A stretch of DNA of 64,000 nt from Amphiura filiformis (taxonomy: Eukaryota; Echinodermata; Ophiuroidea; Amphilepidida; Amphiuridae): contig NC_092642.1 in assembly GCF_039555335.1 (NCBI RefSeq), positions 13,216,243-13,280,242 on the forward strand. The letters run 5' to 3'. The translations under genes and the position numbers were made by a program. Positions 10,466-60,735 of the stretch are shown piece by piece. The notes under the pieces were generated by a model, which worked only from the letters and a program-made list of their open reading frames with translations, was not told the DNA's origin and made no database searches. Position 1 is the stretch's first letter, and each line of letters opens with the position of its first letter.

Positions 10466-11698
10466 CTATCTTGCGGACGCATCCGAGAAAGAGTTTACGA
10501 TTCTTTTCCAGGAATCTCTATCAGCCATCAGATTTGGGAGGTCATTAATTTCTTGATTGACGTCCCTTGCCACACAGTCGATGTAGTTGAATGGTCTTCT
10601 TCCTCTACATGTTCGTGGAAGCCTCATACAGATGACATCTGAAATTATTTGGTCTTTTGCACGGTAGCAGTGGCCTGCAAATCTGGCTCGCCGTTGAGCA
10701 ACGATGGAGGACACCTGTGGAACACCATCATAGATCTCTGCTTTGGTTTTATGTTCACGCCAGGATATATTTCGAACCCTCATCAACAGCCGGGTGTAGG
10801 TACCATCAAGACGGTCCTGAAGATCTTTCTTCATTGTCCAGGTCTCACTTCCATATAAGAGGATACTCTCTATGCAGGCTCTAAAGAAGGCAAGCTTGGT
10901 ATTTCTTGATATGTTGGACTGCCAGATGGTGTGCAGTTTGTTGCAAGCTTTCCATGCTTGAGCTTTGCGAGTCAGAAAGTCTTTCTTGCTGTCGGCAACA
11001 AATGAACCAAGATATTTAAAGTCCGACACCTCCTTGAGTTGTGTGCCATCCCGAGAAAGGATTGGAGTTGGGTTCTTATCTCCATTAATACACATATATT
11101 CTGTCTTCTTGGAATTGAGAAAGAGGCCAACTTTGGCGGAAGCATCTTCTAAAGATGACAGAAGATCTTGGGCATCTTGTGATAACTTAGCTGTTAAAGC
11201 GATGTCGTCTGCGTAGTCAAGATCGGTTAAATACTTGTTCTTCTCTCTGCTCGTCTTATTGGGCATGATGTCAATCCCTTTGGACTTGTCAGTGTCTATC
11301 GACTGTCTGAGGAGATAGTCTACCACTATCACAAAAAGGTAAGGGGCCAAGGTGTCGCCCTGCAGGATTCCAGCAGTAGAGAGAAACTCTTCAGTTGGTC
11401 CATCACCTGTTTGTACAAAACTTGAAGGATTATCATACATTATTGCAATAGCATTCACAATCTCCTGAGGGATCCCATAATTACGAAGAATATGCAGCAT
11501 GGCCTTCCGGTTAACACTGTCGAAAGCTTTTGAGAAGTCAACAAACACAATATATGCCTGCTTCTTTGAGATTTTAAGCTCTTCTATTATCCTTCTAAGG
11601 GCTAGAATCTGTGGTGTGGTTGATCTACCCTTGCGAAAACCATTTTGGTTACGTCTGAGAATAGGATCTAGATGAGGAGAAATCCTGTTGAGCAGCAT
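10466..11698 (-). pseudogene. LINE reverse transcriptase, palm to C-terminus
   Basis: The 410-residue open frame contains the ordered RT motifs: NGFRKGRSTTPQILALR (finger), IVFVDFSKAFDSVN (motif A with catalytic Asp), GILQGDTLAPYLFVIVVDY (motif B), LDYADDIAL (motif C with the two catalytic Asp), LNSKKTEYM and FKYLGS (thumb side). It ends in a C-terminal segment with QRRARFAGHCYRA and DRDSWKRIVN. RT motifs 0-2 continue into 11699-11932 in shifted frames (TPGPDTIPAMFWKN, IIPLPKKG, DLSQPSNYRGITLS), so the true protein began in the endonuclease ORF upstream. The catalytic residues are intact, but the upstream frameshifts disconnect this part. Its tail resembles in type the LINE remnant at 735-1139. 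Confidence 0.93.
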
Positions 11699-11932
11699 AG
11701 TGTTATACAGCTTGGCAGCAAGTGCTGACAGTGTGATACCTCTATAATTTGATGGTTGTGAAAGATCCCTTTCTTCGGGAGAGGTATAATTGTGGATCTT
11801 GACAAGGCTTTTGGCTTATTTCCTTCATGGTTTCATTACAGAAATCAAGCAGTTGCTGATGGAAGAGTGGGTTTTTCCAAAACATGGCTGGTATGGTGTC
11901 AGGACCAGGTGTTTTTGACTTGCTGAGCTTGC
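11699..11932 (-). pseudogene. Frameshifted linker between LINE endonuclease and RT
   Basis: On the minus strand this segment encodes, in alternating frames, SKSKTPGPDTIPAMFWKNP, LFHQQLLDFCNETMKE, LSRSTIIPLPKKG and DLSQPSNYRGITLSALAAK. These are conserved entry blocks of LINE reverse transcriptases. At least two single-base frame changes occur here, one of them in the KKG|DLS block, where a single G seems to be missing. They add to the change of frame at about 11933. Confidence 0.85.
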
Positions 11933-13354
11933 TCAGACCTTTTGCAGTTCCTCCATAGTAAATGGACCAGTGTGTATTGGGAGATCGTCAGAGACATTGC
12001 TGTTAAAGAACGTATCTTCAAGGTTTACGTCTTGCTCTGGTTTCCCTAGTAAGTTGGAAAAGTGTAGAAACCAGTTGTCACGACGCTCTTCAGATGTATT
12101 GCCTTTCACTCTAACCACAGGAGCAGATTTGGTGTCAGTTATCTCCCGGAGGAGTTCCCAAGAAGCTGCATGTTTATATTCATGATGGAGGTTGTCAAGT
12201 TCCTCTGTCTTCTTTTGAATAGAGGACTCCAGAGTTTCTGTGTAGGCTTTATCAAGAGTAACTTTGGCCGATTCGAGGAGCTTTTGTGATGCTCGGGTGG
12301 ATCTAGCATTGTGTTTCATAGATGCACTCTTTAAGACATCTCTTGCCTCAGTGACTTTGTCTGATGCAGCAATGTTGTAGGACTGCTTTGATTTTTTAGG
12401 GAGCATCTCCAGTGCAACTTCCTCATTAGCCGCAACTAAGGTATCATAAGTGGTGCTAATATTGGGTTCTTGTAGCTCATCGTGTAGAGAACTGAAGCGG
12501 TTATAGACTGCTACCACAAACTGCTCACCCAGGATGGTGTCTCTGGTAACCTTCTTCCAGTCAATACGTTTCATTGGGTCTTTCATGGAAGTTCTGCATT
12601 TCCGGTAGCTGATTTGACATTTGCATGAAACAATCCTATGGTCCGAGTTCACACCCTCGAAGGAGCTGTATGCACGTGAATTCTTGATTGAGTTGATCCA
12701 CTTCTTTCTTACCAGGACAAAGTCTAGTTGAACTAGTTGGCCATTAGGACGCCTATGTGTCCATAATCTGTTGATGCGGTTTTGAAACCTTGTGTTTGTG
12801 GCTATGAGGTTATGTTCCTGCAGGAAGTCTTTCATGTGGTTGCCATTTCTATTGGTTTCTTTAGCAGGTGTGAAGAGAGCATCCAATGGCCCAAGCTGAG
12901 CATTAAAGTCTCCTCCAATTATAAGTAAGTTATGAGCTGGGATGGCATTAACTGTAGAAGAGAGTTCTTGGTAGAAGGAGATAACAGCTTCTTCAGGTTG
13001 TTCGTTATGTGGACTGTAGCAGCAGAGAACTGTGGATGTTGGATTGCCCAGCAGAGAAATTTCCATAATCCGTTCATTATGACTAATAATGGACATGCAG
13101 GAATTGATGGCTCTTGGTGAGATTAAGAAGCCTACTCCACCAGTGGCAGCATTCCTTTGGTTCTTCCATGCTGAAGAGGTGACTAATCTGTATCCATTCA
13201 GATCTTCCTGCAAGAGGGAGTCATTGTGACAAATCCGGTGTTCCTGCAGACATATGATGTCAATGCCATAATGTGCGGCTTCATGAGCAAGTTCTTCTTT
13301 TTTGGCTAGTGAGTTGAGAGTTCTGATGTTGAAAGTGCTGATGGATAGGATAGG
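11933..13354 (-). pseudogene. LINE apurinic-type endonuclease domain
   Basis: The frame is open from 13354 and reads ISTFNIRTLNSLAKKEEL, IICLQEHRI (metal-binding Glu), LIIGGDFNAQLG (Asp/Asn pair), LDFVLVRKKW and EGVNSDHRIVSC (catalytic Asp-His). These are the signature blocks of the APE-like endonuclease that nicks target DNA in LINEs. The rest of the frame (about 12560-11933) is a lysine- and glutamate-rich linker of the kind found between EN and RT. It ends at a stop after MEELQKV, where the conserved continuation (KSKTPGPD) is in another frame. A conventional ATG-initiated N-terminus is not apparent. Confidence 0.92.
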
Positions 13355-22591: not shown

Positions 22592-24168
22592 AACTAAGAA
22601 AGGATCATGAGAACATTATAGTACTTGAAGATAATGTCAATGTAACACTTGCAATTACGTTACAGCTATATTTAAAGCTTACAAACGCCCACCATTTAAT
22701 AAACATATTCATAAAGAGTTGCAAATAAAGATTGTGTATCTTACTCTTACTTTCATATGAACCTTTAAAAAGGCCATATTTTCAAGATGAAACGTTGCTG
22801 TACCTATAGGGGGCATAAAATCAAATACACACAATTCAAACATAATCGTCTTATTTTGTTTAACTATGAGAACATAAATAGAGGCGCAATTTGGTAAACA
22901 TTATTTTCAAACACAATGGAACAGTCACATTAAAAAAATCACCGCCACGTTTAAGATGCGGAGCGATAGCTGTCTGCAATTTTTTAACTCTTGGTCAATT
23001 TCGAGGTTTAAGCGCAAGAAGACCCTATATAATTTTGAAACATTCTGCATTTTATAATATAGATAGACATGTGGCACCTGGAGGCCGTTGCAGACTCTTC
23101 TTGTTATAAACACACGAATGGAAAAATGTAACCGTACCAGACAAGTTGTAAGACGACTGTTACTTGTCTGACCGTCCAGTTGTGGGGATTGTGAGCTTTG
23201 TTGTAAGTAATTCATAAACCAAAAGGCACTCTTGTCTATGCATTCAGTAACAAAATTAACAAGTTGAAACGCCGGCAACAAGTTGTGAGCCGTAGCTAAT
23301 GGACCACCGTTGAAGTTGATATGAAGTTAAGCGTCTTCATTATGTGTAGTATCCCAAAATGTTTGTTCCCAATTTTAAAAGCAGTTGTGATTAACCTTTT
23401 GAGGTTAAAATATGTGACCGTACAGCACGAATGAGCCGTAAATTCCCTAAATTGTATTCCGAGTTACAGTGTAAAATGTGTACGAAGGTCGTATTCATCG
23501 GTAACTGAAACTGGCACGACATCTATCTCATTTTGATAGTCAAACACCAATCAATAATCCTATTGTTGAAGTGGATAATAAGCTTCTACCTTAGATGGCT
23601 ATAGAAATTTTGGTAGCTCTGGTCTTTATTTGCTTTGGCTAAATCCTGTTCAAGTGGTGGGTTACCAGGAATTGTATTTTGTATAGGTATGTATAACCAA
23701 CAATTAACAATGAGAGAACTTTCTTAAACCTTGTTGACTTGGTGATGATTTGAAATGACCGCCAATTACGACTGTTTGATATTTATTGCCAGCAATGTGG
23801 AAAAAGAGACACATGTAGAAACGAAAAATATTACAATTTTGTTGAAGGAGCAAAGTTTAACAAACCATAACCCCGCTTCTGGATATCGGTTGAAGTCAAA
23901 TGATATACCATTTTAAAGCTTATCATGTATATTTTCTAAACACGAAATAAAACAAAATTGACCGGGGGAGGAATTTACGGCTCATTTGCCGTGACCGGTC
24001 ACATATGGTTTAAATATGATAGACTTAGAGTGGACATTGTAAATCAAGTATAAACTTTCATTGTCTAAAATGTCTCTTCTTATTATTTAAAAAAAGTATG
24101 AATCACGTTTCCCGACACTTGCTCGTATAAAAATACGCCTTTCAATTTTGAAAGAATTCCTTATGTAA
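22592..24168. other. No gene seen
   Basis: AT-rich. The minus-strand frame at 22925-23281 has no recognisable domain. No RNA gene or strong repeat was noted. Confidence 0.4.
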
Positions 24169-24397
24169 GGGACCGTTCACAAACACTTGTTAAGGAGGCC
24201 TGATGCAAAAAGGGACCCTGAAAATGTTTGACCCTCCTAAGGGGGGGCTGAAAAAATGACCACAAATTTTCCTGGGAAAATTGAGTTTATATGCTTTTCT
24301 ATGGTTTGACCCATAATTTTTATGTCAAAAAAAAGGGGGGGGGGCTGAAATTTTGAGATCTGTAAAGGCCCCCCTACAAGTGTTTGTGAACGGTCCC
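24169..24397. mobile_element. Harbinger-like MITE, copy 1 (poly-G rich)
   Basis: Terminal inverted repeats GGGACCGTTCACAAACACTT(GT) are nearly perfect at both ends, flanked by TAA on each side (24166-24168 and 24398-24400). A 3-bp TWA duplication and GG-type ends fit PIF/Harbinger. The inside has several G7-G10 runs and the phrase TGACCCATAATTTTTATGTC. A second copy lies at 52870-53151. Confidence 0.85.
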
Positions 24398-24400
24398 TAA

Positions 24401-24939
24401 CCTCTCTCTCTCAATGACTAAAACAAACTTGTAGTATAGGCTTATGCGCCTTAAGATGCAACAGCGTACTCAATGCCCCAATAGGATAGCTTTTGAGAAG
24501 CGAGACTTTCCGCATTGGAATATTTTTTCTCAGTAGCATCAATGCTTCAAGCTATTTTCGAAGTCTCTTTATGGACTTGGCTATAAGCATCTCTCTATTA
24601 TGGTTTATGTTGAACTTAATTTTACCATACATTCAAATATGCCCCATCTTCATTCAATTGAGAACACATTTATGAATCGTTAGGTGGATACTGTTATGTT
24701 CCGGAATTGTAAATCGTGACATTTTTAGGTTAAATAGCACCTGTGGTTCTATATATTCACAACTTTTCGCATTAAACCAATATTATATCATCTGCAAAAT
24801 ACAAAAATTAATGACCTGCATTTACCACTTTACACAAGAAAATGACATGGTTGTGGGTATAGAATGCGTTTTCACACCCACATTACTCCCATATTTCAGT
24901 ACGACACGGACTTGCATGATCCCAATTATCACTAGATCT
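24401..24939. other. No gene seen
   Basis: AT-rich. A 60-residue open frame at 24493-24675 has no recognisable features. Confidence 0.4.
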
Positions 24940-25926
24940 GGTTACAGATCTGGACCTAGCCGGGGCCGGAAATGCCAGTCTTAACTTAAAGTTTGACCTT
25001 TGACCGGCTATTATAGACATCTCACACCATTAATGGTGCATCACTGTAGCAGGGGCTTTATCCGTCTTCCATAGGCTGAGATACACCTACTTTTCTGTAA
25101 TTTTAAACATTTTTTTGCAAATTTGACGTTTTGACCTCCTTAATGACCTTTGACCCCAATATAAAAAAACCTCATATACACCGAGAAAATGCATTGTTAC
25201 AGTTTAAATTAAAAAATCTACTATGCTTAGTTATGGAGATAAAATTCTTGAAGTTATTTAGCTTAAAACCGGAAATGACGTCTAAATGACCTTTGACCAA
25301 AAAAATAAAAATACTGTGCATACATCAGGTAACACTAATGCATATATGAAGTTTATGTCACTCTGGTCTGGTTACGTTTTGAGATATAAAAAATGAACAT
25401 ATTTGATGATTTTTGGTTTTTGACCGGAAGCGACCCTTAATGACCTTTGACCCCAAAACTGTAGACACCCCAAAGACCCTAGTTGGTAGCAATGCATGTG
25501 TGCTAATGACAACACTCTGCTATGTAATTTGTAAATACAGTGATTTTTTTAAATATTTTTAGCTTTCAGACCGGAAATGACCCCCTTAATGACCTTTGAC
25601 CCCTTATCTGTGAACACCCTATAGGCACCGACCAAAGTCAAGTCACATGACCTAAGCATGTCACCATCACATGTTATTTGTGGAAGAAGATACATTTTAT
25701 AGTAAAAATCGCATTTTTGCCATTGTGAGCAGGTCAAAGGTCAAATGGAGTTCAATGTCATGTCACATGTGGGGACATAGTCAGTGTTGTTTGTGACCAA
25801 GTACGGTCAAAATCGGTCAAAGCATAACAGAGCTAGGGCGAAACGTGGCAAGTCACGCACGTGTTGCCAGAAGAAGAAAGATCCGATAGCATCACAAGAC
25901 CTAGCCGGTGTCCCGGCTAGGTAATA
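24940..25926. repeat. About 150-bp tandem units, each with TGACCTTTGACC
   Basis: Five degenerate units of about 145-150 bp occur in a row. Each ends in ACCGGAAxTGACxxCCTTAATGACC-like sequence followed by TTTGACC: sites start near 24999, 25141, 25291, 25441 and 25591. AGGTCAAAGGTCAAATG occurs on the opposite strand at 25731. The repeat is bracketed by GACCTAGCCGGGGCCGG (24953) and GACCTAGCCGGTGTCCCGGCTAGG (25900-25921), suggesting defined ends. It finishes about 23 bp below the stop codon of the minus-strand GPCR gene, so it would form much of that gene's 3' UTR or immediate downstream DNA. Confidence 0.85.
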
Positions 25927-25948: not shown

Positions 25949-26610
25949 TCAAACATACTTCTCTACGTTTTGCGACGTAACTCTACTAGCTATAGTACAG
26001 CGTTTCGATCCATTACGATACTTGTGTCCATTTTGGTGCATATGTAGAAGCTCCATGGTGTAATGATTGTGTTCTGAATTATTTCTGGTTAATCTACTCG
26101 GGGTTGTAGTTCCACTAATAGGACGTCCCCTTTTCCATACAAATGAAGACACTAAAAGTGAACGATATCTGCGTCCGCTGAAAGCGTACACAAATGGATT
26201 CAGGGCTGAGTTGGAGTATGATAAGCATAAGCAAAACGATGTTACGTACCGATGAATTTCGATATTAAATAACGTTACAAGGTGCACAGTGTGAAGTGGG
26301 CCCCAGCACAACCCAAATAAGACAACAACTAGAAGAGTCATCCTGGTAACTTTCCATCTGCGCCTGCGCAGCGTGTTTACAGATGACGAGGCTAGTTGAC
26401 GACGTCCACGCCAAACTCGTTCTAGTATTCGTCCGTAACAATAGAACATTACAGCAAATGGTAAAATATAGAACATAATAATGGCGTAAATCTCATAGAA
26501 GACAGGACCATTTTCTGTTCTGAAGCGTGGAGTACACATTCGAATATTTGTATATAAAGTTTCAACCAAGCTGTAGTAGATAGCTATAGGAATGTGTAGA
26601 AGAAACGAAC
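25949..26610 (-). CDS. Kisspeptin-receptor-like GPCR, last coding exon (TM4-TM7 and tail)
   Basis: This terminal coding exon of a rhodopsin-class neuropeptide receptor encodes 219 residues plus stop after splicing. The exon begins after the acceptor TTGGTGTTACAG with GT, completing a Gly codon from the TM3 exon (31476-31611). Visible in order are the end of TM4 and extracellular loop 2 with its conserved Cys (about residue 25, RMCTPRF), TM5 (about 38-60, FYILPFAVMFYCYGRI), a basic third loop (RRRRWKVTRM), TM6 with CWGP (101-104), TM7 with NSALNPFVYAF (about 133-143, the NPxxY activation motif), and a cytoplasmic tail of about 75 residues. Similarity in the paired exon to vertebrate kisspeptin receptors, and CWGP with SYSNSALNP here, favour a kisspeptin/GPR54-like receptor. 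Galanin or allatostatin-A receptor relatives are the main alternatives. Expected role: plasma-membrane receptor for an amidated peptide signalling through G proteins. No polyadenylation signal was found close to the stop, where a repeat begins. Confidence 0.9.
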
Positions 26611-40013: not shown

Positions 40014-40518
40014 TCATATTAAATTCATACAATTTTTGTTTAATTTATTTGAGCTCATATTTGAGATCATACTTTGTGATATACATTGCAGTATCCACAT
40101 CGGAAATGACAAAAGAAATTAACGGCATATCAAAACGTGTGATTACATTTCAATTTTATCGTTATTGCACGATTTAATATGAGTGGTTATTATTATTAAT
40201 GTGGTTTGACATGTACCGACAAAGCCTGATAAAGGCCAATTATATGTTTACGTCAGACTTACAATTAAATATTAAATCCATACAATTTTTGTTTAACTTA
40301 TTTGGGCTACAGATCATACTTCGTGGTATACATTGCAGTATCAACATTGAAAATGGTAAAAGAAATTAACGGCGTATCTAAACTCGTGATTACATTTCAA
40401 TTTTATCGTTATTGCACGATTTGATATGAGTGGTTATTATTATTAATATGGTTTGACACGTACCGACAAAGCCTGATAAAGACCAATAATCTGTTTACGT
40501 CAGACTTACGATTAAATG
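40014..40518 (+). repeat. Tandem duplication, two units of about 253 bp
   Basis: The segment from ATACAATTTTTGTTTAA through TTTATCGTTATTGCACGATT and TACCGACAAAGCCTGATAAA to TTTACGTCAGACTTAC occurs twice head-to-tail (from about 40014 and about 40267), with roughly 90% identity and few indels. Non-coding. Confidence 0.93.
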
Positions 40519-41789: not shown

Positions 41790-42265
41790 ATTACTGCCGT
41801 AATTTCTTCTGTTATTTGTTTCTAAATTGCGAATTTGCATATGCATAATTGTTATTGCTACAGTCTGTATAACAATGATACTCTTATAAAAGATAACGAA
41901 CATGCATGCATGGTCATCAGATAGGAAGAGTCAATGCCGCAAATCAATTGTTCTATTATACGTACATAATCATTTAACCATCAGGTAACTGTGACAGGGA
42001 CTGAAATTTAGTTACCATACGAGTACATGTCTCCATTTGGGGATCAACATGCAATCTAACTGATTACAAATCTCTTACCTGGGTTAATACAGTCCAATGC
42101 CAAAGAAATTACATAAACTTTGTCATTTTCATTCATTACTTTCAAATAATATGGTCGCAAAATCTGTAAACTATGTAGTACTGTAAATAAAAATATTAAC
42201 ATTCTCAATGAAGAGCAGTACCACTTTTATACTGCACATATGCATATCGTGTATTAATGTTCTAT
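41790..42265. other. No confirmed gene; weak minus-strand exon candidate at 42079-42163
   Basis: Mostly featureless AT-rich sequence. One 85-bp minus-strand segment between TTTACAG and CCAG|GTAAGAG stays open in one frame (YYLKVMNENDKVYVISLALD). I do not recognise the protein, and a chance GT-AG pair is possible. Confidence 0.3.
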
Positions 42266-42267
42266 TT

Positions 42268-42440
42268 AGGGACCGTTCATTATTTCTACCGGAGGGGGGG
42301 CCGGGAGCAGACAGAAAGTCACTGCCGAAAACTATATGACCCCCCTTCTCCGATAATAAAAACCATATGACCCCCCTCCGAGCTACATGAAAATCATATG
42401 ACCCCCCCCCCCCCCCAACCTGACGTATGCACACACGCAA
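42268..42440. mobile_element. GGGACCGTTCATTATTT repeat family, partial copy 1
   Basis: Begins AGGGACCGTTCATTATTTCT followed by a G7 run, then repeats of CATATGACCCCCC-type units on the plus strand ending in a C run. A related copy in the opposite orientation lies at 47102-47312. The open frames across it come from the repeat units. Confidence 0.7.
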
Positions 42441-42828
42441 TGATGCGCAATATATATGGTCGAATCCAACGAAAAGTGTACACGGCATGTCCAGGGCCAT
42501 AACTTAAAAGTATTAATCAATTGGCATTCGTTTTTGTATTGTGTTTATTCGCCGTGATCATACGCTTCGCGCCATATATAATAAGACCCCTTCTGTGAAA
42601 AACTTAGACACAGAGACCCCAAAACATGCTATTTTTACCCATTTTTTCAAAATATTTCTTAAAGTATTTTTAAAAACATCTAAATCAGTTATGAAAAGAA
42701 GTCATTGGATTGAATCTAAATTGATTTCCTGAAAGGTGTATATTCAAAGATTGCCTGTTCAATTTTTCACATATTTGTACATAATTATGAATTTTTTGTG
42801 ATAATTTTTTGAGTGGTATTTTTTTACA

Positions 42829-44695
42829 TTACCTACGAATACAATTTTTCATAGCACTAGATATATCTTTAAAAATGGAAATCACTAATAAATGCGCAAT
42901 TGATACAAGCTTTGATATGTCCAATACTGAAATGCATTGCATTCGGACATCTTTATTATTGTGTTTAGCTGCCAGAAATTCTAAATGGCACAAAGGTAGG
43001 TTTGGTAAAAATATGCATTACCTCCGAATACATGTTAAAAGCTGTGCCATTTCCACAAAGTGAGAGAATAGTAAACAATAGTTAAGCAATAGGTGCAGGG
43101 TAATACACTCTTTATTTCTACCAAGTTTCAATAACCTGCGTTTAAATATTTCTGAGATGTCAACAATAAAAGCAAGTATTCGTAGGTAAATTTCGGTAAC
43201 CGAATGTTACCTACGAATACACTTTGACATCATGACAGTATTGTGAAACACCGCCATTCATGCCAATGCCCATATTGGTACATAACGAAGGCCTGTATGT
43301 TTGCTATCAAATCATATGTCAATGAAAGTTGCGAATTCACATACATGCCCACCATGCAAAACTGAATACGGCTTAATTGGTGAAAAATATGTACTCAAAT
43401 AGATGACGGTCTGCTCATTTGAAAGAAAAATCAGATTCAAAGAAGATTAGAAGGGGATAAATACTTGGATTTGTCAACTGTCATGTGTGCTTCCTTTTAA
43501 ATGTTTACCGACCTTCTGGTTTCTTAGTAATTTGTGTCCAAATTGATTTATTCGAAGGTAACTTTTGACGTTTTCGCTAAGGTTACCTACGAATACCATG
43601 GAAAAACGACTGTTCTCATTGTCTCATGATCTAGACAACACATTGATGGACCCTGGTATAAAGCTAATTGTAGTTGCCCTCAAACGAAAGGCTACAAGAC
43701 GTAACTGACTCCAAGATGGACTTGACAAGTCTGCAATAACGGTTTTAAGCGATTTGTGTGCAATTAAGCAAATTAAAGTCACTTTAGTGCCTTTGTTTCT
43801 TACTTCAATCCTCTTTCAACCGTTGTGAACCGACATTATTAATACATGATAGGGTCTAAAGTATCAATAAACGCACATAAAGAAAATAATACATTCAAAG
43901 TGCTTTATAAAATGAAGTTTTGATTGCGATATCCACCAAAAGTCTAATTCTTACCTACAAATACTGAAATGTTACTTACGAATACAGCATAATACATGAC
44001 ATGTGTAATGAAGTGTCCCTACCAATGGAAATTAATTGTCAAAAACTTTAAGCGGTACCCCAGGACACTATTATTACCCATATACGGATTCATTCAACAA
44101 TTATTTATTATTTATTTGCTGATTAACTACTTGTATATCAAAATGAAGTGGTCAAAATCTTGCTAAAAGCATCAAAAAATTTTTGATCTAAGGTAATAGC
44201 ATTTATTCATTTGGACGTACCATCTGAAGAGATCTAAAACTACCATTTTATTAATTCATTACCATAATAGCAAAATTTAAACCTATAAACTCAATATAGA
44301 TATGGTTAAATCGCTCATGTTACCTACGAATACCCAGGTTTCTTCACCTTTTCATTGTATAAAGCGTTATGTGTATGCGTATAATTCCTAATATTCTTGA
44401 AAACATATATCATACTCGTTCTTATACAATGTGTAAATTGATTCATACTCATTTGATAAATAAAATACAGAAACTGACCTAAACTTCATTTTCAAAAATA
44501 AACTAGCATAAATTGACTAAGATCATATTGATCGCGTTATAAAAATAAAAACAAATATTTTCTGGTTGAGTTAGCATTTTCCTGACACCCTGTGGTCTAC
44601 ATTACACGAAAAAAGCGTTAATGGGAATATTCCATTTGTTTTAGGTTGATTAGTATTGCGATAGTGAAAGCATCCTAGTGGTATTCGTAGGTAAC
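42829..44695. repeat. Nine dispersed copies of the box GTTACCTACGAATAC
   Basis: Copies start at 42829 (+), 43018 (+, one change), 43176 (-), 43206 (+), 43582 (+), 43950 (+, changed), 43971 (+, one change), 44319 (+) and 44681 (-). All but a few positions of the 14-15 bp box are identical, while flanking sequence shows no shared homology by eye. Several intervals fall near 188 or 360-377 bp. No coding sequence was recognised in the interval. It could be an array of protein-binding sites, or the subterminal repeats of an unrecognised DNA transposon. Confidence 0.9.
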
Positions 44696-44699
44696 ATTG

Positions 44700-45638
44700 G
44701 GTTTTGATATCACATTTACTATCACACGTCCTGGATTTATTTTTCAAGATTAGTAATGGCACTTTTGGTTCCTATAAGGCCAATATGTCATCAATCAATG
44801 GGCAAAAGGAAAAAATTGTGGAGACATTATTATTTCGGACTTTTATTTTTGGCCCGTGGACACTTTTGGTTGGATTCGACCATATGCGCGCATGGATCAG
44901 CTGCCTCAACGCATCACGTCACTGCCACATATCAGGCTGACAAATTATGCCTTTATACCAATTTTTCACAAAAAGCACCTAAATTTACTCTAATTGCAGT
45001 AATTGGGCACTTTTCTCCAATGGTGTTTACTGAATAGCCACCCATCAATATACCAAAATCGCTGAAAAGGACCCCCAAAACGTGGCACATCCTTATATAT
45101 ACCTTCAACTAGGTAGAACCCCACAGGGTATTTTAACTTGTTTTATTTATTTTTCTAAAATATTATTTATTTCACATGCATGTACACAGTTTTTGGTTCA
45201 AACTGCCACCCTGTGCTTCAGCTAGTAAATGTACATGTACTTCAATACCACAGGTCCCTGAACAAACCACAGTGATATTATCCATATACGACTACAGTTT
45301 TTTGCACCAAGAACAATCTTTCAAGTGGCAGGTTTGGAAACTTGGGGTCAAAATTATTATAATTCATTAGTTTTATGTAAAATGGCTGTAAAACAAATTT
45401 ATTTCATTTTTTAAATTGTAATTTAATTCAATCATACAGAATATAAAAAATTAAATGAGTTTAATAAACTATCAAGCTGATTTATTAATTTTCAAAAGTA
45501 TGCATCAACTTCTCATACATGTTGATACTGGGTGCAGTACATAGCCCCCTTTGGTGTAAAATGAATGAGTTGCAAAATCTTCTTCATCAGTATATTAAAA
45601 TGAATAAAAAGTAGTTTGTGACATCTTACCATAAATCA
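44700..45638. other. No gene seen
   Basis: Overlapping plus-strand frames at 44704-45037 have no recognisable domain. Otherwise AT-rich. Confidence 0.4.
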
Positions 45639-47101: not shown

Positions 47102-47312
47102 TAATGGTCAGGGGTCATTGGGCAATGTTCCAGATGGGGTGCAGGGGGCGAAGCCCCCGGAAGCTCCAGGATTTTTGAGATGCAAAACCATCTGACCCCC
47201 CCTTTCAATAACTAAAAAACCATCTGACCCCCCCTTTTTGCCTGACAAAAACCATCTGACCCCCCCATGTATTCTCCCGGCCCCCCCCTCCAGTGGAAAT
47301 AATGAACTATAA
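47102..47312. mobile_element. GGGACCGTTCATTATTT repeat family, copy 2 (inverted)
   Basis: The right end reads, inverted, TAGTTCATTATTTCCACTGG followed by a G7 run, matching the start of 42268-42440. Internally CCATCTGACCCCCC occurs three times. The left end contains GGGGGCGAAGCCCCC, a perfect inverted motif. Confidence 0.7.
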
Positions 47313-52749: not shown

Positions 52750-52869
52750 ACTTTAATGAAGTAAAATTGAAATTTTACTTTAAAAAAATTTCATATTGGG
52801 GAAATGTGACTGGCAGAATTTATGTATGGCGTGGAGTGGTGTGTGCCGATATCTGTAAATAATGATTAA

Positions 52870-53151
52870 GGGACCGTTCACAAACACTTGTAAGGGGGGG
52901 CCTGATGCAAAACAAAATTATCGCGAAAATTTTTCGGGCCCCCCCCCCCTTTTCAGAACTAACAAATTTCAGGCCCCCCCTTTTTTTGACATGAAAATTA
53001 TGGGTCAACCCCATAAAAAAGCATATAAACTAAATTTTTCCAGGAAAATTTGTGGTTATTTTTTTCAGGTTCTCCCCCTTCAGGGTCAAAAATTTTAAGG
53101 GCCCCCTTTTTGCATCAGCCCCCCCCCCTTACAAGTGTTTGTGAACAGCCC
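52870..53151. mobile_element. Harbinger-like MITE, copy 2 (interior inverted)
   Basis: Ends GGGACCGTTCACAAACACTT and, inverted, GGGCTGTTCACAAACACTT, flanked by TAA (52867-52869 and 53152-53154). Compared with copy 1 (24169-24397) the ends match but the interior is in reverse-complement orientation (TTTTGACATGAAAATTATGG). C8-C10 runs are prominent. Confidence 0.85.
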
Positions 53152-53154
53152 TAA

Positions 53155-56322: not shown

Positions 56323-56429
56323 AGTTCGAGTTCGAGTTTCGAGTTCGAGTTTCGAGTTCGAGTTTCGAGTTCGAGTTTCGAGTTCGAGTTTCGAGTTCGA
56401 GTTCGAGTTTCGAGTTCGAGTTCCGAGTT
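56323..56429 (+). repeat. 13-bp tandem array, GAGTTCGAGTTTC unit
   Basis: About eight units, some shortened to GAGTTC, start within 20 bp of the LINE 3' tail. The same unit in opposite orientation forms the larger array at 60497-60735. Because 13 is not a multiple of 3, all frames stay open (FEFRVRVSSSS), so the ORFs are artefacts. Confidence 0.96.
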
Positions 56430-56497: not shown

Positions 56498-56935
56498 TGG
56501 GAGAGCGTTGGCGCAATGGTTAGGGTACTTGCCTTCAGTGCATGAGGTCCCGGGTTCGATTCCCGGCGGTGGCGATTTGCTGGGATATTGACTTGGGAAA
56601 AGTCTGAAATTAATTGGCAACTTCTGTAGATTATATTCAGACTTCCGCTCTCCCCATGGTTCATTTAGAATTGGGTAAATGAATCATGAAAGTACTCCGT
56701 CCTTCGGAGGGGACGTTAAGCCGTCGGTCCCGTGTACATAGAGCCATACCTGTACATGTATCTCGCAGCCAGTTTCGAAAAGAGTAGGGTGTTAACCCCT
56801 GACTGCTCCCCAACCCCGGGTCCCCAACCCGTCCCGGTGTTCAAATGGACCCCAATGGAAATAAGCTTCAATAGAGGCTTTCTTGGGTTATCCAGGGTTG
56901 TCAAAACCCGAACAAATCAAATTAAATCAAAAATC
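56498..56935 (+). mobile_element. tRNA-derived SINE with conserved-looking core
   Basis: The tRNA-related head has an A box (TGGCGCAATGG, 56509-56519) and a consensus B box (GGTTCGATTCC, 56553-56563), correctly spaced for RNA polymerase III. Downstream is a GC-rich body with CTTCGGAGGGGACGTTAAGC and CGTCGGTCCCGTGTACATAG, reminiscent of the shared core domains of metazoan SINE superfamilies. The 3' part (AGGCTTTCTTGGGTTATCC) probably derives from a partner LINE. The end near AAATCAAATTAAATC is not exact. Frames on both strands are incidental. Confidence 0.8.
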
Positions 56936-58000: not shown

Positions 58001-58845
58001 TGTTGAATAAAAATAATATGTTCGAAATTGTCCATATTTTTACTCCCATGAATTTCAAAGCACTGAAAATTAAGGAAAGTGCCAATTTTGGGCTTCAACT
58101 TTTCACTTTTGTACACATTTCAATGGAGAATGAAAAATTTACATGCGTTTTTCCGGAAAATTTTCCTTTGCGAAAAAAAAATTAAAATCTTTCTCGTTTT
58201 GATTTTTAGGTTCGTAAATAGCATATTACTTTTGGGCTTGGAGATAAAAATAAAAAAATAAAAAAAATAAATAAATAAAAATTCAAATCGACGCGAGTTC
58301 CTCAAGTGCGTGTGGTCGGTCCGTCAATATGTGTATGTATCAGGTACACAGCAAATAACTTCCACCCTGCCTGCCAGGTGATTCAGCAAATTCTTCCACA
58401 AAATTCTTCTTTTTTTTTTGCTTTTTTAATTTTTAACAAATACTTTATTTTATGTAAAGTACTGTATAATGTATAAGGACTTCAACTGACATCATGTCTA
58501 AATAGATTAAGCATAACATATGAATCGCATTTTTGGGAATGGCACAAACTTTGTCAGGGAAAAACCCTGCCAAAGTTCGCAAGAACATTGGAGAAGAAAA
58601 ACACCAATTTCAAATAAACAAATTGGGTAATTTATACGCGCGATAGTCTCAATTGACTTCCTGTTCAGTACAACCTTCCACCGAGGGGAAAACATTTATA
58701 GTTTGGGTATTCAACATTCCAATATCCTGTCCAAGTTTGTGTTAGAATCTATAAACATGGCACCAAACTTCCGGAAAAAACAAATATATCATGTATCTAC
58801 CAGGTAATGACACCCAACAACTGCAACCAGTCATTATCATTATCA
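58001..58845. other. No gene seen
   Basis: AT-rich; frames are short and unrecognisable. Confidence 0.4.
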
Positions 58846-58849
58846 ACCA

Positions 58850-59402
58850 GTGATTATCATTACCTGCAGGTTACCGACACAAAAAGGAGAACAATATGAC
58901 CGAATCTTCAAGCACACCCATCCATATTACCGCTTTGTACTAATGAACCGGAATAGAGTTTTTAATTTATATAACCTACGGGTACGTTACACTCTTTTAT
59001 GGGATAGAAAGACAGAATACCGATTTGGACTTTTATCAGGTTGGCTGGACGTTCTGCTACCCCCTTCACCCCCCCCTATCTCAGAAAGAAAACGTATGAA
59101 GACGGTCAGCGTGACGGCCGCTGCCGCACAAAAGAGAAAATCAAGTTTTGCCCCGACACAACCACGGAGCCAACCCCCAGCGCAACGAGACTCCAGACCG
59201 AGACAACACAACAACCCGAGACACAGACCACACTCCAGAAACGGAGCACAGAGAGGTAGATACAAATCTGCAGGCTGGACAACGGCGCATGACCGCCGTT
59301 AAATATCTTATATTTCAAACCCAACGGCTCTTTTCAGAGCCACCCCGACTTCCAAAAAGAGATGATGTCTGTCAAACATGTCTAAAGACATGGACACAGT
59401 AA
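58850..59402 (+). other. Unassigned coding-like region, possibly a mobile-element fragment
   Basis: From about 59041 composition shifts to CA-rich codons and three frames stay open. One reads TTRDTDHTPETEHREVD then LFQ/RLFSEPPRLPKRDD and ends at 59400-59402 (TAA) with VCQTCLKTWTQ. Upstream, 58870-59040 holds a frame with HPYYRFVLMNRNRVFNLYN. I recognise no domain. The GC-rich, threonine/glutamine/proline-rich part could be a low-complexity piece of a mobile-element protein or chance. Confidence 0.3.
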
Positions 59403-60496: not shown

Positions 60497-60735
60497 CAAC
60501 TCGAACTCGAAACTCGAACTCGAAACTCGAACTCGAAACTCGAACTCGAAACTCGAACTCGAAACTCGAACTCGAAACTCGAACTCGAAACTCGAACTCG
60601 AAACTCGAACTTGACACTCGAACTCGAACCTCAAACTCGAAAATCGAACTTGACACTCGAAACTCGAATTCGAAACTCGAACTTGAAACTCGAAACTCGA
60701 ACTCGAAACTCGACAATTGTAAACTCGAAACTCGA
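60497..60735 (-). repeat. 13-bp tandem array, opposite orientation to 56.3 kb array
   Basis: About 18 units of ACTCGAACTCGAA, the reverse complement of the 56323-56429 unit. The first half is regular, and the second half has point changes (TTGACACTCG, AAATCGAAC). Open frames on both strands encode 13-residue periods (RTRNSNSKLELET) and are artefacts. Confidence 0.96.

Follow-up and report, generated by a model that had tools for sequence, protein, structure and literature searches.

Ten copies of a 14-nucleotide box inside an apparent non-coding transposon of Amphiura filiformis

Results

Features of the 64-kb window

The window, by which we mean the whole 64,000-nt stretch of Amphiura filiformis DNA analysed here, holds coding sequence, mobile elements and short repeats. 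A non-LTR retrotransposon with open frames for an endonuclease and a reverse transcriptase occupies 10466–13354 on the reverse strand, and an exon of a G protein-coupled receptor (GPCR), which contains position 26425, has a galanin receptor as its best solved relative; both features identify the window as animal DNA. A MITE-like element with 26-nt inverted repeats (GTAAGGGACCGTTCACAAACACTTGT) lies at 24165–24401 and has a second copy, about 83% identical, at 52867–53154, while a 247-bp unit occurs in two tandem copies, 89% alike, at 40016–40517. Arrays of a similar 13-bp unit (TTCGAGTTCGAGT / AACTCGAACTCGA) were found in opposite orientation at 56325–56429 and 60498–60735. Among structured RNAs, we noted a histone 3′ UTR stem-loop at 59321–59366 (38 bits), beside which an open frame at 58811–59302 is not histone-like by eye, and a tRNA-like Rfam match at 56509–56566 (32.3 bits, model positions 8–63 of 71) that is possibly a tRNA-derived repeat.

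A sharply bounded box recurs ten times

A screen of the window for 12-mers with at least three letter types and at least four occurrences within 3 kb, all copies being at least 15 bp apart, returned just two arrays, one at 42828–44695 and a second near 25 kb. The core of the first is a sharp 14-mer, TTACCTACGAATAC, of which ten copies with at most two mismatches fit within 1.87 kb, seven on the forward strand and three on the reverse (Table 1). The original prediction had described nine copies, divided seven and two between the strands; the array proved real and located where it had been reported, and all seven forward copies were confirmed, but the total is ten, with a third reverse copy at 43548 (two mismatches) that was presumably overlooked. 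When matched as the 15-mer GTTACCTACGAATAC with up to two mismatches, the box occurs 12 times in the 64-kb window, 10 of these within 42828–44695, against a mean of 0.05 and a maximum of 1 in 100 dinucleotide-preserving shuffles. For the 14-mer, matches with 0, 1, 2 and 3 mismatches number 6, 3, 1 and 0 inside the enclosing element described below, versus 0, 0, 2 and 7 in the rest of the window, so that a gap separates real boxes from chance-level matches inside the element, and the six core-exact copies have no counterpart in the remainder of the window. Of the matches outside the element, the two that differ at two positions lie at 23491 and, within the GPCR exon, at 26425; both were treated as chance, although two already exceeds what the shuffles predict.

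Alignment of the ten copies revealed 10 invariant and 4 variable positions in the 14-mer, and the G that precedes it as the first letter of the 15-mer is also variable (G in 6 of 10). Information content drops to near background on both sides of the 14-mer, the exception being a weak A at −2/−3, whose strength in a joint test over positions −4 to −1 is reached by 0.035 of random draws; over −8 to −1 the observed value is reached by 0.11 of draws. Apart from this A, and from a few pairs of boxes that have up to 8 further nucleotides in common, the earlier claim that the boxes share no flanks was upheld.

Table 1. Coordinates of the boxes and of the element that appears to enclose them. Box coordinates are those of the 15-mer; mismatches refer to the 14-mer core.
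Feature	Coordinates	Strand	Remarks
Box 1	42828..42842	+	Core 14-mer exact
Box 2	43017..43031	+	Core with 1 mismatch
Box 3	43176..43190	-	Core exact; diverging pair with box 4
Box 4	43206..43220	+	Exact
Box 5	43548..43562	-	Core with 2 mismatches; diverging pair with box 6
Box 6	43582..43596	+	Exact
Box 7	43950..43964	+	Core with 1 mismatch; box 8 follows in tandem at 21 bp
Box 8	43971..43985	+	Core with 1 mismatch
Box 9	44319..44333	+	Exact
Box 10	44681..44695	-	Exact
Left putative terminal inverted repeat	42454..42485	+	32 nt; gapped alignment continues to about 42510
Right putative terminal inverted repeat	44854..44885	-	32 nt; gapped alignment reaches inward to about 44839
Putative non-autonomous TIR element	42454..44885	.	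2432 bp; basis: TIR pair, edges, open frames
Possible second TIR-core copy, CACTTTTGGTT	44760..44772	+	Lies 101 bp inward of the copy in the right TIR (44861)

The second array in the window (24994–25743) consists of six copies of GGTCAAAGGTCA, identical over 12 letters and spaced at intervals of 141–154 bp. The repeated sequence is a DR1-like site with partly shared, decaying flanks, and possible short terminal repeats (ACCTAGCCGGG) lie around the array near 24953 and 25921. In its architecture it resembles the element at 42454–44885, with flanks that can still be partly aligned, and it perhaps represents another element family.

An inverted-repeat pair encloses the array

The longest inverted repeat among those listed for 42001–45600 is a 32-nt pair, 94% complementary, that encloses all ten boxes (Table 1); the original prediction had proposed looking for flanking inverted repeats and had itself missed this pair. 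Its local alignment score is 54, whereas 500 shuffles of the left region never exceeded 31, and blastn assigns it an E of 1.5e-7. A tentative gapped extension of the alignment crosses a 10-nt indel (GGGCCA...TAAAAG). Outward, the similarity ends at ATAT on both edges, which is readable as a duplication of ATAT, TA or AT, or as part of the repeats. Elsewhere in the 64-kb window, no further copy of an arm was found within 5 mismatches of 21. The pair has the appearance of terminal inverted repeats (TIRs), which would delimit a non-coding DNA transposon of 2.43 kb; that the repeats are transposon ends we infer from one copy, and the two arms could instead belong to two oppositely oriented, unrelated insertions of one family. 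With up to two mismatches, the TIR core CACTTTTGGTT has 8 matches in the window against 6.7 expected, and only those at 44760 and 44861 are exact; the copy at 44760 would be weak evidence for an inner transposase site.

The first box lies 374 bp in from the left end of the element and the last 190 bp in from the right end, with the rest spread between. That the box forms part of the TIR found no support: of 5000 shuffled versions of each TIR, 2624 (left) and 1851 (right) match the box as well as the real TIR does, and the local score is equalled in 1036 (left) and 2062 (right) of 5000. With the box absent from the TIR, the transposase need not be the protein that reads it. The original prediction had offered either a protein-binding array or the subterminal repeats of a transposon. 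Each of these is supported in part: the array lies inside an apparently TIR-bounded element, but its boxes are interior, not subterminal, and unlike the TIR. Outside the element, the stretches 42328–42411 and 47184–47266 are tandem arrays with a repeat of about 31 bp around CATATGACCCCCC / CATCTGACCCCCC, one of them adjoining the left TIR, and 42275–42313 matches 47268–47307 in inverted orientation.

Open frames of at least 35 aa that overlap 42300–45000 number 37, with lengths of 35–110 aa. A Pfam scan of 10 of the 37, the longest of which has 109 aa and lies partly outside the element, gave no match better than E 0.16, and the element copy was on this ground taken as non-autonomous. A coding remnant is thus without support among these 10 frames, and no transposase gene was recognised in the element (37 frames of up to 110 aa, 10 of them scanned against Pfam).

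The boxes are regularly spaced

Neighbouring boxes were grouped by eye into seven clusters, centred at 42835, 43024, 43198, 43572, 43967.5, 44326 and 44688. Three of these clusters are pairs of boxes, two of them diverging (at 30 and 34 bp) and one in tandem (at 21 bp). The best period for the ten boxes in the range of 100–500 bp is 187 bp, and in post hoc tests against uniform placement, with the element ends unused, equal regularity at any period in that range arose 45 times among 10,000 layouts with randomly placed clusters and 21 times among 10,000 with randomly placed boxes; a separate run, likewise without ends, gave 20 and 10 of 5000, respectively. The spacing of about 185–190 bp, or double that, proposed in the original prediction is therefore supported. 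The element ends were added after the spacing was seen: measured from the left end in units of 187.08 bp, the clusters lie at 2.04, 3.05, 3.98, 5.98, 8.09, 10.01 and 11.94, and the right end falls at unit 13, the 2432 bp corresponding to 13 × 187. Five of the 12 inner positions of this grid (1, 5, 7, 9 and 11) are empty. When the period was tied to the element length (5 to 24 divisions), again post hoc and against uniform placement, 2 of 20,000 cluster layouts and 0 of 20,000 box layouts were as regular. These tests show regularity, not its cause.

The DNA between the boxes does not align

The regular spacing counts in favour of a decayed tandem repeat, in which the interior would have started as an array resembling a satellite, with a unit length of about 187 or 374 bp, within a mobile element, and the box alone would still be recognisable. 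Such an origin has a precedent in HINE elements, non-autonomous Helentrons of oysters with central repeats of mostly 140–180 bp (PMC7492417), and the DR1 array, with its shared, partly decayed flanks around an intact 12-letter core, is similarly in its favour. In addition, self-identity of the masked element is 0.302 at lags of 185 and 376 bp alike, which exceeds the mean (0.279) by about 2 s.d. However, these two lags do not stand out, since at least 13 others between 60 and 899 equal or exceed them, reaching 0.310 versus 0.302.

Direct comparison of the units argues against this explanation. Seven box-masked units of 195 bp, one per cluster, gave a mean z of 0.06 (s.e.m. 0.26) over 21 pairs, of which two reached 2.6 and 2.9, and control units on a 205-bp grid that ignored box positions performed the same, with means of −0.22 to 0.51 over 8 sets. 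The DR1 array, treated alike as a positive control, had a mean z of 2.64 and a maximum of 9.1 over 15 pairs. Similarly, in 20 comparisons among five inter-box units, made in both orientations, local z did not exceed 1.8. The original prediction had allowed that the boxes might be debris of a decayed tandem satellite with flanks that align between units; within the window, the mean z of 0.06 shows no such alignment.

In simulations of decay by substitutions plus 2% indels, with six repeats each, the mean z was 3.6–8.0 when 70% of sites were kept, 0.9–2.6 at 65% and 0.4–2.3 at 60%, meaning that related units were detected at 70%, weakly detected at 65% and mostly missed at 60%. At 60% retention, the probability that every one of ten 14-mers retains 12 or more of its 14 positions is about 1e-14, a figure that overstates the case if many further boxes were lost, as the boxes were picked for having at most two mismatches. 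We therefore rejected a decayed satellite as a sufficient explanation, because the units fail to align and neutral decay is unlikely to spare ten 14-mers. A satellite-like origin of the interior is unlikely in our estimation, and for the same reason, selection on the box would still be needed even if the array began as a tandem repeat. Whether kept or placed there, the boxes seem to have been independent of the surrounding DNA.

RNA structure and searches for relatives

We also considered an explanation at the RNA level, by which the diverging pairs at 43176/43206 and 43548/43582 would form hairpins that yield small RNAs matching the other boxes. Boxes 3 and 4 form a 45-bp inverted repeat, and the 57- and 61-nt stretches that hold the two diverging pairs fold, as DNA, with z of −8.1 (boxes 3 and 4) and −6.0 (boxes 5 and 6), as this explanation would predict. 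Yet hairpins are present in just 2 of the 7 clusters, and any inverted pair of boxes would fold likewise. No Rfam family reached its gathering score in the element, and the sole match up to E 1 in 42400–44950 was to mir-137, at 20.1 bits versus a gathering score of 56.7 (E 0.77). Small RNAs from hairpins are thus a very improbable account of the array, and boxes on both strands, including the two diverging pairs, would suit recognition as DNA better than an RNA signal.

The exact 14-mer was found in at least 120 stretches of viral contigs, with one match per locus among the 80 loci listed, and these behave as stray matches would. Neither the TIR pattern nor the diverging-pair pattern had a match in viral or bacterial/archaeal contigs, and blastn of 42400–44950 against plasmids and phages found nothing at E 0.01, results that were to be expected and carry no information on animals. 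Four box and TIR strings were absent from the text of 5.39 million open-access papers, and among the matches listed (titles and abstract beginnings) the literature held analogues at most and no description of the element. Coral MITEs with an unusually conserved internal region have been described (PMC2872659). The window has an observed/expected CpG ratio of 0.84 and the element, boxes excluded, one of 0.79, which makes CpG retention uninformative as a sign of protection from methylation.

Discussion

We consider it probable, with modest confidence, that the locus holds one copy of a non-autonomous TIR transposon of about 2.43 kb, whose non-coding interior is a putative array of sites (TTACCTACGAATAC) for one protein; held at that same modest confidence, this reading leaves undecided whether the protein is encoded by an element or by the host. 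The occurrence of boxes on both strands, the sharp 14-bp edge and the independence from the flanks point, as sequence features, to a protein-binding site, and the boxes are probably sites of this kind. The protein that reads them would most likely be an accessory protein of an autonomous partner, or a host factor, and it would bind the boxes cooperatively, with pairs at 21–34 bp. Once bound, it would keep the chromatin of the element open or bridge the element ends. As the array lies within an apparent mobile element, selection would probably be on the ability of the element to move or stay active, and the sites would be kept by selection on mobility across the family, not on the locus at 42454–44885 itself. 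Selection of this kind would explain the persistence of the boxes amid intervening DNA that shows no sign of shared descent. Boxes newly added by short duplications would give a similar picture in a single sequence, and the reading by selection rests on one copy.

Among documented systems, the subterminal transposase-binding repeats of Tol2 likewise comprise several short sites inside the TIRs, and the TnpA sites of Spm/En are also subterminal transposase-binding repeats. In those systems, the sites are concentrated at the ends, whereas here the boxes span the whole interior and are unlike the TIR. The closest documented logic that we found is that of the Arabidopsis VANDAL elements, in which the nine-base VANC21 motif YAGTATTAY occurs in many copies in the non-coding DNA of one VANDAL family (PMC5735166), and VANC21 binding induces a loss of DNA methylation (PMC5735166, PMC10398659). 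The element at 42454–44885 shares with these a short motif repeated and enriched in non-coding DNA. It differs in that VANC motifs are often found in tandem repeats, whereas the DNA between the boxes here is without repeat, and in that the plant elements have proven binding and this animal element putative binding. No VANC-like gene was recognised in this copy (37 frames, 10 of them scanned). A non-coding element with nucleosome-sized internal periodicity also describes the oyster HINEs, but their monomers were grouped by 70% similarity, whereas the units of 42454–44885 do not align, and they carry subterminal inverted repeats and a 3′ palindrome in place of TIRs at the very ends (PMC7492417).

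A further alternative places the boxes under the control of the host, either as sites for a host zinc-finger or other factor within a mobile element, for regulation or insulation, or as an enhancer with inverted repeats around it by chance. The DR1 boxes at 24994–25743 presumably match the nuclear-receptor consensus, and on that basis sites for host factors may be present in the neighbouring array. Given that the inverted-repeat pair is far beyond chance, a plain enhancer is unlikely, and the box itself resembles no factor site that we know of, which we count against a host array. The precedent in its favour is the gypsy insulator, where a host zinc-finger protein occupies a cluster of twelve Su(Hw) sites carried by a mobile element; robust blocking requires at least four of these sites in tight spacing (PMC2493044). 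The likeness lies in short factor sites arrayed within a mobile element; the difference is that gypsy is a retroviral element whose sites are not about 187 or 374 bp apart. By analogy with gypsy, a host factor is in principle an equally possible reader of the boxes, while a host regulatory array or insulator as the account of the whole locus seems to us rather unlikely.

Returning to a transposon with a putative site array, its spacing permits a more specific and distinctly tentative version, which we regard as rather doubtful at present: a new animal family of TIR transposons, in which the sites of one protein recur at every one or two nucleosome repeats (187 bp). Sites in register with the element ends would phase nucleosomes, and this phasing would keep the whole element open or hold its two ends together for transposition. 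Conserved short boxes throughout the non-coding DNA of a transposon are already known from the plant VANDALs, where they serve anti-silencing (PMC5735166). The spacing makes the phasing idea directly testable with nucleosome maps. If true, an animal element that combines the VANDAL logic with nucleosome-like spacing from its ends would suggest that arrays for chromatin phasing or anti-silencing are more widely used by transposons.
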